From Pseudomonadota bacterium (GTDB lineage: Bacteria; Pseudomonadota; Alphaproteobacteria; GCA-2731375): a stretch of 45,959 nt of DNA. The notes beneath the pieces are model-generated. The model searched no databases, was not told the origin of the DNA, and saw only the letters and a list, made by a program, of their open reading frames with translations. The stretch spans positions 1 through 45,959 of the forward strand of contig JAQBYC010000030.1 of the NCBI GenBank assembly GCA_027623205.1. Reading direction: 5' to 3'. Shown here in pieces: positions 41,703 to 45,959 of this stretch. Made by a program: the position numbers and the translations under genes. How positions within the stretch are numbered: the first letter of the stretch is position 1; the number at the start of each line of letters is the position of its first letter.

Positions 41703-43118
41703 TCATGCGGTTCTCCATTCGGGCACATCGCCGTCTCCCAGATCCCAGAACAACCCGGTCATGATCTGTAAGCCTTCACGCAAGACCGGCTCCAGGGCGT
41801 GTTCGTCGGGGGCATGTTGCGAACAAGCGGCGTAGGAATGGGGCACCCAGATGGTGGGCAGCCCCAGGATCTCCGCAAAGACATCGTTAGGCAGTGAGCC
41901 ACCCAGGTTTGGCAGGATTGTCGGCTCTACCCCGGTGGTCTTGCGCAGAGAGCGCCGGGCCCATTGCACCCAGGGGTGGTCGGGCAACAGACGCGATGCC
42001 CGCATCATAAAGCCATTGTGCTTCTGCCCGACCACGACATCATGAAAGCCCTTGGCATCCAGATATGCACGGATGGCGGGCAGGAATCCGTCGGGGTCGC
42101 GGTCAACGGTAAAGCGAATCTGGCACCAGGCGATGGCCCTGGGGGGAATGGCGTTGGCCACTTGGTCGGGATTGCCGGCCTTGATCGCCAACACTTCGAA
42201 AGTATTCCAGGCGAACACCCGCTCCGCCGGCGTAAGGCCCGGTTGGCCCCAATCCTCTTCCACCGCCGGGCCGCTTTCGCCGCCCCGTACCTGCACGTCC
42301 GCCAGCACCTTGCGCACGGATGGCGGGATTGCCTCCGGGCGCAATTCCGGCACCAGAATTTCCCCTTTTGGCCCGACCAGTACGGCCAGCGCATTGGCCA
42401 GGCGTGTGCCGGCATTGGATATCAGACCGCCCCAGTTGCCCGAATGGTGGGCCCCGTCGCGTAAATCAACGCTCAGTTCAAAGTTCAAGGCGCCCCGACT
42501 ACCCATGAAAAGCGTCGCCTTGTCGGGCGCCAGACGCGGCCCATCCGAGGCCAGAAGCAGATCCGCCCGCAAGGCGTGGCGATGGTCTGTCGCGAAGGCC
42601 GCCAGACCGACCGAGCCGACCTCTTCCGACATCTCCAATAAAATTTTGCAATTGAAGCCCAAGCGCCCGCGCACCGCCAGCACCGACGCCAAGGCGGCCA
42701 GGTTGACCGAATGCTGGCCCTTGTTATCGGCTGTACCGCGACCGTACCAACGCTCGCCTTCCTTGACCATGGTCCAGGGATCGCGATCTTCGCGCCATTC
42801 CCCTTCAAAGCCGCGCACCACGTCGCCATGACCATAACTGAACAGGGTCGGCAGATTAGGGTTTTCCAGGCGTTCGGCCAACAGGAAGGGACCGCCGCGG
42901 GAATCAGGGTTGGGATGTAGCGCCACCGCAAAGCCGAGTCCTTCCAGCGTCGGGGTCATTTCCTCCACCAGGTAGCGCTCCAACTCCGGGCGTAATTCGG
43001 GCACCTGGGCAGTCGAACGAAAGCCCACCCGGCGCGCCAGATCCTGAAAAAAAGCGCCGCTATCAAAATGCGCCGTCGCCTGGTCAATGGCTGCGTTGCG
43101 AGTCATTCCATGCCCCAT
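41703..43118 (-). CDS. M20 family metallopeptidase
   Basis: 471-residue zinc-dependent peptidase or amidohydrolase. Y-G-H-G-D-V-V (about residues 94-100), W-Y-G-R-G-T-A-D-N-K-G-Q-H (about 123-135) and E-M-S-E-E-V-G-S (about 162-169) supply His, Asp and the catalytic Glu of the M20 dimetal centre; the dimerisation domain follows near 230-350. The size and pattern suit ArgE/DapE/ACY1/CPG2 relatives acting on dipeptides or N-acyl amino acids. ATG at 43118 and 43106 are both possible starts. Confidence 0.9.
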   Translation of the reverse strand: MGHGMTRNAAIDQATAHFDSGAFFQDLARRVGFRSTAQVPELRPELERYLVEEMTPTLEGLGFAVALHPNPDSRGGPFLLAERLENPNLPTLFSYGHGDVVRGFEGEWREDRDPWTMVKEGERWYGRGTADNKGQHSVNLAALASVLAVRGRLGFNCKILLEMSEEVGSVGLAAFATDHRHALRADLLLASDGPRLAPDKATLFMGSRGALNFELSVDLRDGAHHSGNWGGLISNAGTRLANALAVLVGPKGEILVPELRPEAIPPSVRKVLADVQVRGGESGPAVEEDWGQPGLTPAERVFAWNTFEVLAIKAGNPDQVANAIPPRAIAWCQIRFTVDRDPDGFLPAIRAYLDAKGFHDVVVGQKHNGFMMRASRLLPDHPWVQWARRSLRKTTGVEPTILPNLGGSLPNDVFAEILGLPTIWVPHSYAACSQHAPDEHALEPVLREGLQIMTGLFWDLGDGDVPEWRTA

Positions 43119-43185
43119 TTTCTTCCGATCATGGATGGCCTGCCATGATAGAACAATCCTTCATGTGGGTCATCCATGGCGCGGC

Positions 43186-43701
43186 CTAGAGGACGCGGGC
43201 AATGGCGCTTGCGGGCACCTTTACCCTGACCTCCCGTCCCAGCAGGTTCAACAGGATGACCACCCGTTCGCCATCGCCCCGGCGTTCGAACAGACCGATG
43301 TGATCGGCCATGGCGCCGCTTTGCAGGCGCACCTGCTCGCCGGGCACCAGACTGTCCCGATCCACCAATCGGACATGCCCGGCCGCGTCCTCCCGCGCCC
43401 GGATCGCCTGGATCACGCGATCGGATATGACGCCAGGCCGCTCGCCAAAGGCCACCAGGCCAACCACGCCGGGCGCGGTATTGATGGCGCGCGATTGGCG
43501 GGGCTGCGGATCGGCGGCGACAAACAGATAACGGGGAAACAGCGGCGCGCTGACCCAGTCGGTCTTGCGGGCATGGCGCCGTTGCTTGCGGTAGAGGGGC
43601 AAATAAACCTCGAAGCCGCGCTCCCACAGATTACTCCGCGCCCAGCTTTCCATCCGGGCCTGCGTATAGACCGCGTACCACGGCGCGGGGGGCGGGGTCA
43701 T
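43186..43701 (-). CDS. NusG-family specialised transcription antiterminator (RfaH/LoaP-like)
   Basis: 171-residue NusG paralogue. The NGN domain has W-Y-A-V-Y-T-Q-A-R-M-E (about residues 8-18), W-E-R-G-F-E-V-Y-L-P-L-Y and L-F-P-R-Y-L-F-V (about 54-61); the KOW region G-E-Q-V-R-L-Q-S-G-A-M-A-D-H-I-G begins near 121. Housekeeping NusG is normally encoded beside secE and ribosomal genes, so this is probably a locus-specific elongation factor for long surface-polysaccharide or secondary-metabolite operons. Overlaps the winged-helix gene stop by ATGA. Confidence 0.88.
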   Translation of the reverse strand: MTPPPAPWYAVYTQARMESWARSNLWERGFEVYLPLYRKQRRHARKTDWVSAPLFPRYLFVAADPQPRQSRAINTAPGVVGLVAFGERPGVISDRVIQAIRAREDAAGHVRLVDRDSLVPGEQVRLQSGAMADHIGLFERRGDGERVVILLNLLGREVRVKVPASAIARVL

Positions 43702-44402
43702 GATGGGGTCTCCGGATGGGTGCCACGCGCCGCTGCGCCGGATGGCTGACGGGCAAGCAGAGGCGAGGAAATCTTCAACAGCGAAGGCGCTCTTATCCTG
43801 TCCACGCCAAATTGGCCAGCCAGTTTTTCAAAGCTGCCCTGGGGGTTCTTCAGATCGCAAATCAGGATCACGTCAAACTGTGGCAAGGAGCCCAGATCGC
43901 GGACCAGATCCACATGCCGGAACCGGTTCGCGCCAGCCCCCTCATCGGCGATGCCGACCACCTCGACATCATGCTGCAAGGCGCATAAAAGCGCGATCTC
44001 CGCCAGTTCTCCCACCCCCACCACGGCGACCCGGCGGTGCCCCGCATCCGCCGCCTCGCCCAGCAACTGGTCGCATTGATTGCGGGCCCGGCGATAGAAA
44101 TCAAACGAGCGAAACAGGTAGTTCGCCGTCAACCGCGATTTCTCGCTAAAGCCCTTCGGCGTCAGGTAATAGGCATAGCGGCCCGGCGGGATCTTGCGCA
44201 CCTTGACCAGGCCCAGGCGCACACAGCGTTTCAGGTAGGCGTTGGTCAGACCCAGGGCGATGTTCAGACGCGCCGCCAGACCCCGTTGCGAAAGGCTCTC
44301 CGCGCCATGCACCGCGTGCAGCATTTCCATGGTAATGCGCGCTTCGCCCGGCTTGCCATCGGAAGCCGTATCCTGCCCGGCCAAGGTCTGTTCGCTGCTC
44401 AT
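43698..44402 (-). CDS. MarR-like winged-helix regulator with Rossmann-like C-terminal domain
   Basis: 234 residues from ATG 44402. Residues about 45-110 form a winged helix: S-L-S-Q-R-G-L-A-A-R-L-N-I-A-L-G-L-T-N-A-Y-L-K-R and G-R-Y-A-Y-Y-L-T-P-K-G-F (wing). The C-terminal half has R-V-A-V-V-G-V-G-E-L-A-E-I (about 125-137) and V-V-G-I-A-D-E, resembling a nucleotide-binding fold as in CoA-binding or Rex-type regulators, then I-L-I-C-D-L-K. Often found beside NusG-like genes in polysaccharide loci. Two palindromes upstream suggest self-regulation. A TTG at 44426 is an alternative start. Confidence 0.85.
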   Translation of the reverse strand: MSSEQTLAGQDTASDGKPGEARITMEMLHAVHGAESLSQRGLAARLNIALGLTNAYLKRCVRLGLVKVRKIPPGRYAYYLTPKGFSEKSRLTANYLFRSFDFYRRARNQCDQLLGEAADAGHRRVAVVGVGELAEIALLCALQHDVEVVGIADEGAGANRFRHVDLVRDLGSLPQFDVILICDLKNPQGSFEKLAGQFGVDRIRAPSLLKISSPLLARQPSGAAARGTHPETPS

Positions 44403-44444
44403 TTCCAGCCCATCCGCGGCCGCCAAACCGGCAAAATCGAATCA

Positions 44445-44485
44445 GTGTTCATGATATGAACACTAGCGCGTTCATCACGTGAACG
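44445..44485. promoter_or_regulatory. Tandem palindromic operator upstream of the winged-helix regulator
   Basis: GTGTTCATGATATGAACAC (44445-44463) is a perfect 8-bp inverted repeat with a 3-nt spacer, and CGTTCATCACGTGAACG (44469-44485) is a second one. Both share GTTCAT-N3-RTGAAC with centres 23 bp apart, about two helical turns, placed 43-83 nt upstream of the ATG at 44402 and facing the divergent M20 amidohydrolase gene. A dimeric regulator, probably the one encoded next to it, is the likely binder. Confidence 0.72.
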
Positions 44486-44594
44486 TCAATGCCTTGCGAG
44501 GACTTCAAACGGGACACAGCTTACTACAGACAAAACCCCCTGTTTTCGGGCAAGATGCACAGGGCGCAGGTAATTGATAGCGGCGGGTCGGGTC

Positions 44595-45827
44595 ATGGTT
44601 GAAATAAACGGCGAACGATTGTTGGGAGATTTGCGCACGTTGCGGTCTATGGGGGCCACGGGCACGGGCGTGGTGCGTCCGGCGCTCTCCGAGATTGACA
44701 TGACGGCGCGGCGCTGGTTGGTGGAGCGCTATCATGCGGCCGGACTGGAGGCGCGCATCGATGGTGTCGGCAATGTTTTGGGCCGTTCCGCCAATCCCGG
44801 TCCGGCACTTTTGCTGGGCTCCCATTCCGATACCCAGCCGACCGGTGGCTGGCTGGATGGTGCCCTTGGCGTAATCTATGCCTTGGAAGTTGTGCGCGCT
44901 CTGGCCGAGGATCCCGCGACCAAGCACCTGGCGGTGGATGCCATATCCTGGCAGGACGAGGAATCCCGCTTTTATGGTTGTCTGGGCAGCCGCTCGTTCT
45001 GCGGCGACTTTTCAGCCGAGGCCGAGGCCGGCCTGGCGGACAAGGATGGTGTCGCCTTTTCGGATGCCCTGGAACAAGCCGGATTAGCAGGCGTTCCGCG
45101 ACTGCGGGCGGCAGATTACAACTACCTGGGCTTTTTGGAAGCGCACATTGAACAGGGGCCGCATCTGGAGTCCCACGGCCTGCGCATTGGCATCGTCGAA
45201 ACCATTGTCGGTCTGGGCGGCATGGTCTTTACCTTCACCGGGCAGCAAAACCATGCTGGCACCACCATGATGGCGGGGCGCAAGGATGCGGCCACCGCGC
45301 TTTATGCCCTGGCCCATGCTATCAACGAGGAATTTCCCAAAGTGGCCGGCGCGCGATCGGTCTGGACCATGGGCCGGGCCGTACTTACACCGGGCGCGCC
45401 ATCAATCGTGCCGGGCCATGCCGAACTGGAATTGCAATACCGGGACGCGGACATGGCCGTCCTGGATCAATTCGAGACGGCGGCCCATCGCCTGGTGGAC
45501 GAGATCAACCGCCGCGGTGGCGCAACGGTGGAAGCGAAACCCTCACGGGTACGCATCGCGCCGGCGCACATGGATTGGGGTTTTCAAAAACATCTCGCGG
45601 CGGCGGCGGAACAGCACGCGCCAGGCAATTGGGTCGCCATGCCATCGGGCGCCTTTCACGATGCCGGCGTGGTTTGCGCGGCAATGCCTTGCGCCATGTT
45701 GTTTATTCCCTCCATCGGCGGCGTCAGCCACGATTTTGCGGAGGACAGCCACGACGAGGACATCATTCTGGGCTGTCAGGTTTTGGCAACGGGCGCCGCG
45801 TCCATATTAACGGCTGCGCCCACTTAG
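44595..45827 (+). CDS. M20 family amidohydrolase (N-carbamoyl-amino-acid hydrolase / allantoate amidohydrolase-like)
   Basis: 410 residues from ATG 44595. L-L-L-G-S-H-S-D-T-Q-P-T-G-G-W-L-D-G-A-L-G-V (about residues 73-94) supplies the first metal His and Asp, W-Q-D-E-E-S-R-F-Y-G (about 119-128) the Glu pair, and E-A-H-I-E-Q-G-P-H-L-E (about 185-195) the next His. These are the signatures of the hydantoinase/carbamoylase (HyuC/AllC/UAAH) branch that hydrolyses carbamoyl amino acids, allantoate or ureidoglycine. The substrate is not fixed by sequence. Divergent from the winged-helix gene. Confidence 0.92.
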   Translation: MVEINGERLLGDLRTLRSMGATGTGVVRPALSEIDMTARRWLVERYHAAGLEARIDGVGNVLGRSANPGPALLLGSHSDTQPTGGWLDGALGVIYALEVVRALAEDPATKHLAVDAISWQDEESRFYGCLGSRSFCGDFSAEAEAGLADKDGVAFSDALEQAGLAGVPRLRAADYNYLGFLEAHIEQGPHLESHGLRIGIVETIVGLGGMVFTFTGQQNHAGTTMMAGRKDAATALYALAHAINEEFPKVAGARSVWTMGRAVLTPGAPSIVPGHAELELQYRDADMAVLDQFETAAHRLVDEINRRGGATVEAKPSRVRIAPAHMDWGFQKHLAAAAEQHAPGNWVAMPSGAFHDAGVVCAAMPCAMLFIPSIGGVSHDFAEDSHDEDIILGCQVLATGAASILTAAPT

Positions 45828-45841
45828 GAATGCAGGCTAGA

Positions 45842-45901
45842 ATGACCGCCATGACTGAACCGGCGTTGATATCTCGAGCCAGCGGTGTGCGATGTCAATG
45901 A
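45842..45901 (+). other. Possible 5' stub of an interrupted gene
   Basis: ATG 45842 (or ATG 45851) opens a short frame M-T-A-M-T-E-P-A-L-I-S-R-A-S-G that stops at TGA 45899-45901, just where insertion-sequence-like DNA seems to begin. It starts 14 bp after the M20 amidohydrolase, the spacing of an operon partner. Too short to recognise; may be a chance frame. Confidence 0.25.
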
Positions 45902-45959
45902 CACATACAGATGTCCGGTTTTTGTAGCACATTAAATGTCCGCTTTTATTTGCTAGGCC
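45893..45959. mobile_element. Possible terminal end of an insertion sequence
   Basis: TGTCAATGACA (45893-45903) is palindromic and is followed by two imperfect direct repeats, ATGTCCGGTTTTTG (45911-45924) and ATGTCCGCTTTT (45936-45947), spaced 25 bp apart. Repeated motifs near an end are known for IS21- and some IS481-type elements. No transposase is in view because the window ends here, so the call is tentative. Confidence 0.3.

Follow-up and report, generated by a model that had tools for sequence, protein, structure and literature searches.

A predicted autoregulatory operator built into the promoter of a MarR_EPS-like regulator and its NusG partner recurs beside sialic-acid-like surface-glycan genes

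The locus described here resembles several known systems in part. In the Rex redox repressors, a winged helix is followed by a Rossmann domain (Pfam families Rex DNA-binding and CoA_binding), and the Rex operator differs in sequence from the one considered below. The glycan enzymes WbaP and UDP-QuiNAc 4-dehydrogenase contain Rossmann domains that are presumably of the CoA_binding_3 type. Some of the specialised NusG paralogues (RfaH, UpxY and LoaP) are encoded inside the operons that they regulate, according to a paper on the origins of RfaH (PMC7593976), which gives their recruitment as unknown. A literature search, with most subscription journals outside its reach, found no description of the operator or of the regulator–NusG pair reported here.

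The window is the whole stretch of 45,959 nucleotides that was analysed. The features around the operator are as follows:

41703–43118, minus strand: M20 peptidase gene, downstream and in the same direction, followed in genus relatives by NeuB/NeuC
43186–43701, minus strand: specialised NusG paralogue of 171 aa, second gene of the operon (PF02357, 6e-18; TIGR01955 RfaH, 117 bits)
43698–44402, minus strand: regulator of 234 aa with a MarR_EPS-like winged helix and a C-terminal Rossmann-like domain (PF13412, 6e-6; TIGR04176, 1.9e-14; structure model)
44447–44461, no strand: candidate operator site 2, GTTCATGATATGAAC, a perfect palindrome overlapping the −10 end and the inferred transcription start
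44460–44465, minus strand: −10 element TAGTGT, separated from the −35 by 18 b (precisely this distance for TAnnnT in 64/74 aligned promoters)
44470–44484, no strand: candidate operator site 1, GTTCATCACGTGAAC on the plus strand, abutting or overlapping the −35 of the regulator promoter
44484–44489, minus strand: −35 element TTGACG, its first five bases (TTGAC) invariant in 74 aligned promoters
44574–45827, plus strand: divergent hydantoinase/carbamoylase-type amidohydrolase (TIGR01879, over cut-off), its position not kept in relatives

The original prediction, of two GTTCAT-N3-RTGAAC copies with centres 23 bp apart between divergent genes, is exact. Both 44447–44461 and 44470–44484 match with 0 mismatches; they are centred on 44454 and 44477, with the regulator to one side (minus strand, starting at ATG 44402) and the amidohydrolase to the other (plus strand, starting at TTG 44574 or ATG 44598). 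The perfect symmetry claimed for both holds for 44447–44461, which is a perfect 6+6 palindrome, but not for 44470–44484, which has five perfect pairs and one inner mismatch (T/G). Random occurrence across the genome had been named as an outcome that would speak against the prediction, and the motif is not random: without mismatch, the ATG-type palindrome occurs at two places in the genome of origin (5.0 Mb, 228 contigs), at 44447 and at the end of contig C214.

On the aligned sequences, the palindromes are built into the −35 and −10 of the regulator promoter, and this is a family-wide feature. Read on the minus strand, the region runs CATTGACG-TTCACGTGATGAACGCGC-TAGTGT-TCATATCATGAAC, with site 1 beginning on the final base of the −35 and site 2 on the final two bases of the −10. 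The −10 matches TATAAT at 3/6 positions, and the promoter as a whole matches the sigma-70 consensus at 8/12 (counted by hand). A generic sigma-70 scan of 44380–44620 called no promoter and found one terminator-like hairpin, formed by site 2 on the minus strand. Taken by itself, the scan speaks against a promoter here; the family alignment outweighs it, the promoter reading rests on comparative evidence, and the overlap of the operator with the regulator's own −35 and −10 is likewise judged from sequence conservation only.

The comparison used the best 80 of the 442 loci found for the regulator family. A double palindrome departing from the 20 fixed positions at no more than 2 of them stands within 350 b upstream of the regulator in 73 of these 80; 400 control stretches taken from the same loci yielded no such pair, even at up to 3 mismatches. 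The −35-linked form, TTGACGTTCA-N5-TGAAC with at most one mismatch, lies upstream of the regulator in 74/80, and 64 of these 74 have TAnnnT 18 b past the −35. It is absent from the other six, one of which (L133) has almost no upstream sequence. Upstream regions of relatives have the same promoter build. Best-pair spacing in the 80 loci is 23 in 45 of them and otherwise 19 to 27, the pairs at 25 and 27, and most of those at 21 or 24, including an extra palindrome upstream of the −35. The suggestion that helical-turn spacing points to cooperative dimers is therefore weak, as 23 bp is 2.2 turns rather than a whole number and the spacing varies, and we discarded helical phase as evidence. Some relatives carry a third palindrome beside the promoter (L112, L130, L083, L085 and L105).

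In members of the genus, RTGAAC closes the second palindrome (one member has CTGAAC instead), and in most of them GATTCG comes next. This RTGAAC offers a potential start codon close to where transcription is thus placed (44402–44455 in the window), and a relic start or a leaderless frame at site 2 is possible. A conserved upstream reading frame was considered and rejected: the RTG frame ends over the regulator ATG in the window and some relatives, with other frames elsewhere (by eye).

The winged helix of the regulator is homologous to TIGR04176 over most of the profile (positions 5–101 of 105; 53.6 bits, E 1.9e-14, below the curated cut-off of 88). No Pfam match was found for the C-terminal domain of ~110 aa, and PF13727 in particular did not match the regulator at E 0.1. 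The structure model has a mean pLDDT of 77, with ten-residue means of 93–98 from residue 101 to 210 and low confidence in the HTH part; it places a Rossmann-like domain behind the HTH, in keeping with the winged helix and nucleotide-binding-like domain that had been predicted. Structural neighbours of this domain (Z 8–10) include Rex repressors, succinyl-CoA ligase, WbaP and UDP-QuiNAc 4-dehydrogenase; the Rossmann fold is common and does not name the ligand. When the family profile was searched against the sequences of solved structures, no match fell below E 0.037, and Foldseek gave none below E 0.001.

The palindrome extends to distant TIGR04176-type homologues drawn from a phylum sample (loci L201–L226). 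GTTCA-N5-TGAAC occurs near the gene's own start in 12 of 14 single-HTH, non-fusion homologues (L201–L213 and L221, with L206 and L212 lacking it). It is usually single and stands just before or over the start, covering the predicted start codon in L203–L205 and L213. All seven fusions carry a 14-b form, GTTCA-N4-TGAAC. These (L215–L220 and L222) come from one alphaproteobacterial family and join a MarR_EPS-type helix to a protein of ~600 aa, with a 4-base operator centre; the fusion partner in L216, the one scanned, is an ATP sulfurylase/APS kinase. Three of the two-domain members (L223–L226) have a double site, and L225 has a single one, 218 b upstream. All 19 N5 and 10 N4 copies in the 82,588 bases of these 26 loci lie upstream of the regulator gene. 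L214 is unreadable, as this locus lacks the start of the gene. L228, which matches weakly and does not belong to the set, has no palindrome.

With a probability of roughly 0.8, the palindromes form an autoregulatory operator that would be bound by the adjacent MarR_EPS-like regulator and serve a narrow surface-glycan regulon. Site 1 occupies the spacer and reaches into the −35, and site 2 covers the −10 end and the inferred start of a sigma-70-type promoter; bound regulator dimers would exclude RNA polymerase and so limit their own operon. It is this occupation of the −35, spacer, −10 and inferred start that favours autorepression. The regulator would be released by a ligand of its Rossmann-like domain, for which a nucleotide sugar or a precursor of that kind is the most plausible candidate, and the NusG paralogue translated from the shared mRNA would then help polymerase to traverse long surface-glycan operons.

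That the same protein activates from these sites, or alternates between activation and repression depending on its ligand, we regard as unlikely. Activator-dependent promoters are often weak or uncalled by scans, and some winged-helix regulators recruit polymerase; the conserved promoter here has a weak −10 (TAnnnT), uncalled by the generic scan, and the extra sites in other genomes also carry a −35. However, a protein bound over the −35/−10 spacer (site 1) and over the −10 end and start (site 2) would be expected to block polymerase rather than recruit it, the −35 is near consensus (TTGACG), and distant relatives place one palindrome over the start codon.

Motif and regulator occur together. 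The exact −35/palindrome motif was found in 19 of 61 relatives, all among the 24 with the regulator and in none of the 37 without it. In 385 class genomes, with the regulator called at a profile E of 1e-10 or below, it was found in 38, all among the 88 with the regulator and in 0/297 without (Fisher 2e-28, a value overstated by the relatedness of the genomes). Of the 88, 50 have no exact copy, mismatched copies being left uncounted. One genome of the same genus (G010) lacks the regulator, the operator and NeuB; NeuB is present in all 10 genus members that have the regulator. Taken with the conserved promoter sites and the NusG partner, this co-occurrence supports the original prediction that the regulator governs its own operon through the operator. 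Recognition of the sites by another DNA-binding protein is conceivable in that binding by this regulator is deduced from sequence comparison, but we consider it very improbable: neither the 297 regulator-free class genomes nor G010 has the exact motif, and in other classes the palindrome is retained at the start of the single-HTH homologues themselves.

The palindromes stand between two divergent genes in the window, and they could in principle serve the amidohydrolase, or both genes. Against this, the promoter points to the regulator, and the operator keeps company with the regulator whatever gene lies opposite. Within the genus that gene may be an amidohydrolase, a different M20 gene or something unrelated, and elsewhere it is often a glycan gene. 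The operator follows the regulator and not the amidohydrolase, which is an inconstant neighbour and an unsupported target; that the sites serve it is highly improbable. Genus relatives have NeuB, NeuC and an M20 gene after the counterpart of the 41703–43118 gene, but the operon in the window lacks them; the genome's own NeuB lies on contig C153.

The second gene of the operon encodes a protein with a PF02357 NGN domain (65.5 against a gathering score of 22.2 bits). It scores 117.1 bits with the RfaH model TIGR01955, under the curated cut-off of 144.5, and is also under the cut-offs of NF033644 and NF033641. All 77 loci with room for it (among the best 80 of 442) have a homologue of this gene no more than 1.3 kb downstream of the regulator, on the regulator's strand. 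No leader word for the NusG paralogue was shared beyond chance: in 45 leaders from outside the genus, 6- to 8-base words were no commoner than in 200 shuffles, with maxima of 9, 6 and 4 against shuffled maxima of up to 10, 6 and 5. These shuffles kept base content only, and a structured or degenerate element would escape such a word count. That the palindromes act as RNA hairpins, whether as an attenuator or terminator or as a recruitment site for the NusG paralogue, is the least probable account, for although site 2 and its tail score as terminator-like on the minus strand, site 1 lies in the −35/−10 region, where this promoter would leave it untranscribed, the tail that follows site 2 is peculiar to the genus, and the leader words shared outside the genus do not exceed those in shuffles.

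Sites away from the regulator indicate the probable regulon. Of 44 exact sites in the class sample, 37 lie within ~125 b upstream of a same-strand regulator match. The other seven comprise C214 of the genome of origin, whose downstream side is unassembled, and six readable sites, all of which precede nonulosonic-acid (sialic/pseudaminic-acid-type) operons by profile matches, some of these matches falling under the NCBIfam curated cut-offs:

G009: precedes an ABC flippase gene and a cytidylyltransferase gene
G022: precedes an ABC flippase gene and NeuB
G506: precedes a NeuB-NeuC-cytidylyltransferase operon
G509: precedes genes of PseB-PseC-PseG-PseI/NeuB types
G437: precedes PseB, then PseC
G494: precedes an ABC flippase gene, PseB and PseC

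We read the regulon as narrow because the same operator stands before only these few distant sialic/pseudaminic-acid-type operons. In 12 further genomes, all nine exact sites are upstream of the regulator by coordinates. The extra operator in G009 (L197, 10397–13156) lies between the flippase–cytidylyltransferase operon and a divergent pair comprising a sulfotransferase gene and an asparagine-synthase-like gene.

Association with surface polysaccharides is seen in relatives, from Pfam counts of neighbours; glycan genes are not adjacent in the window itself. Downstream neighbours include GDP-mannose dehydratase/epimerase (15/81), UDP-GlcNAc 2-epimerase (8), ABC transporter (7) and NeuB (5), and upstream neighbours include UDP-glucose/GDP-mannose dehydrogenase (18/64) and heparinase (15). 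Homologues of NeuB/PseI, NeuC or PseC occur in the flanks of only 31 of the best 80 of 442 loci, and the nonulosonic link is thus a tendency across related loci, not a rule.

The regulatory unit appears to be present twice in the genome of origin:

43177–44492, minus strand: cassette of promoter-operators, regulator and NusG paralogue, both ends of which recur at contig ends (C214, 70 b; C153, 51 b)

It starts 3 b ahead of the −35 and ends 9 b beyond the NusG stop codon. Positions 44423–44492 recur exactly over 70 b at the end of C214 (L005, 17069–17138), and 43177–43227 recur exactly over 51 b at the start of C153 (L277, 1–51), the contig on which the single NeuB of the genome is found. In this assembly, contigs break off ~65–80 b inside repeats, as seen for IS-like sequence at ~40 contig places. 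The simplest reading of these sequences is that a second, near-identical copy of 43177–44492 joins the two glycan gene contigs C214 and C153 and would thus sit within a glycan cluster; its junction is unassembled. On C153, an APS kinase gene lies close to where the cassette ends. At its right end (45893–45959), the window itself finishes in ~67 b of the IS-like repeat found at ~40 contig places of the genome.

Another genome, G002, offers a parallel. The ends of two of its contigs, C56 and C84, are identical over exactly 141 b, a stretch that falls within the regulator. C84 has an intact promoter beside a glycan cluster. On C56 (L048, 7622–7867) the copy lies beside an amidohydrolase, has altered −35 and −10 elements and has lost the HTH in frame, with only the Rossmann part left. 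A strain mixture was dropped as the sole cause of C214, since the overlaps at both cassette ends, with C214 and C153, together with the two-copy case in G002, fit two genomic copies better.

Together, the operator, the regulator and their recurrence beside surface-sugar genes across many Proteobacteria suggest that sialic-acid-like surface sugars have a switch of their own, one that limits itself. A DNA operator can thereby be assigned, on comparative grounds, to TIGR04176, a large family of regulators of which little more than the name is familiar, and a regulator of this type is tied to a constant NusG paralogue, with sialic/pseudaminic-acid-type surface sugars as the predicted regulon. More tentatively, and with less confidence than an even chance, we propose that a mobile, precisely bounded cassette (operator-bearing promoter, precursor-sensing repressor and dedicated antiterminator) governs alphaproteobacterial nonulosonic-acid glycans at both initiation and elongation. 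In this view the entire cassette is copied together, between glycan clusters and an ancestral chromosomal site, and conversion or recent transfer keeps the copies alike. Its 15-bp operator code would be conserved throughout the MarR_EPS superfamily, whose range takes in both the single-domain proteins of other classes and the alphaproteobacterial ATP sulfurylase fusions. With a defined promoter, repressor and partner, the question of how operon-encoded NusG paralogues are recruited, as posed in PMC7593976, should become testable in culturable Alphaproteobacteria.

The locus can be set against the systems introduced at the outset. Rex chains are among the better structural matches of the regulator's C-terminal domain (Z 8.2–9.7 over ~105–110 residues, rmsd 4.3–5.5), which also fits many other Rossmann folds; unlike Rex, the regulator has no Rex DNA-binding or CoA_binding Pfam match at E 0.1, and its predicted regulon is one of glycans. 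WbaP and UDP-QuiNAc 4-dehydrogenase match at Z 9.3 (3nkl, 97 residues, rmsd 3.6; 8t53, 87 residues, rmsd 2.5) and share the glycan connection, but they are enzymes or enzyme modules without a DNA-binding domain, and a shared fold shows no ligand. As with RfaH, UpxY and LoaP, the second gene encodes a NusG paralogue beside glycan genes; in contrast to them, the paralogue here is always preceded by a winged-helix regulator, and no ops-like leader word was found. The MarR_EPS family (TIGR04176) shares the homologous winged helix, the glycan context and the 15-bp palindrome, which is common to above-cut-off members in other classes. The regulator differs from these in scoring under the cut-off and in its extra C-terminal Rossmann-like domain of ~110 aa, and the locus differs in having two operators inside the −35/−10 region, where they have one near the start codon, and in its constant NusG partner.
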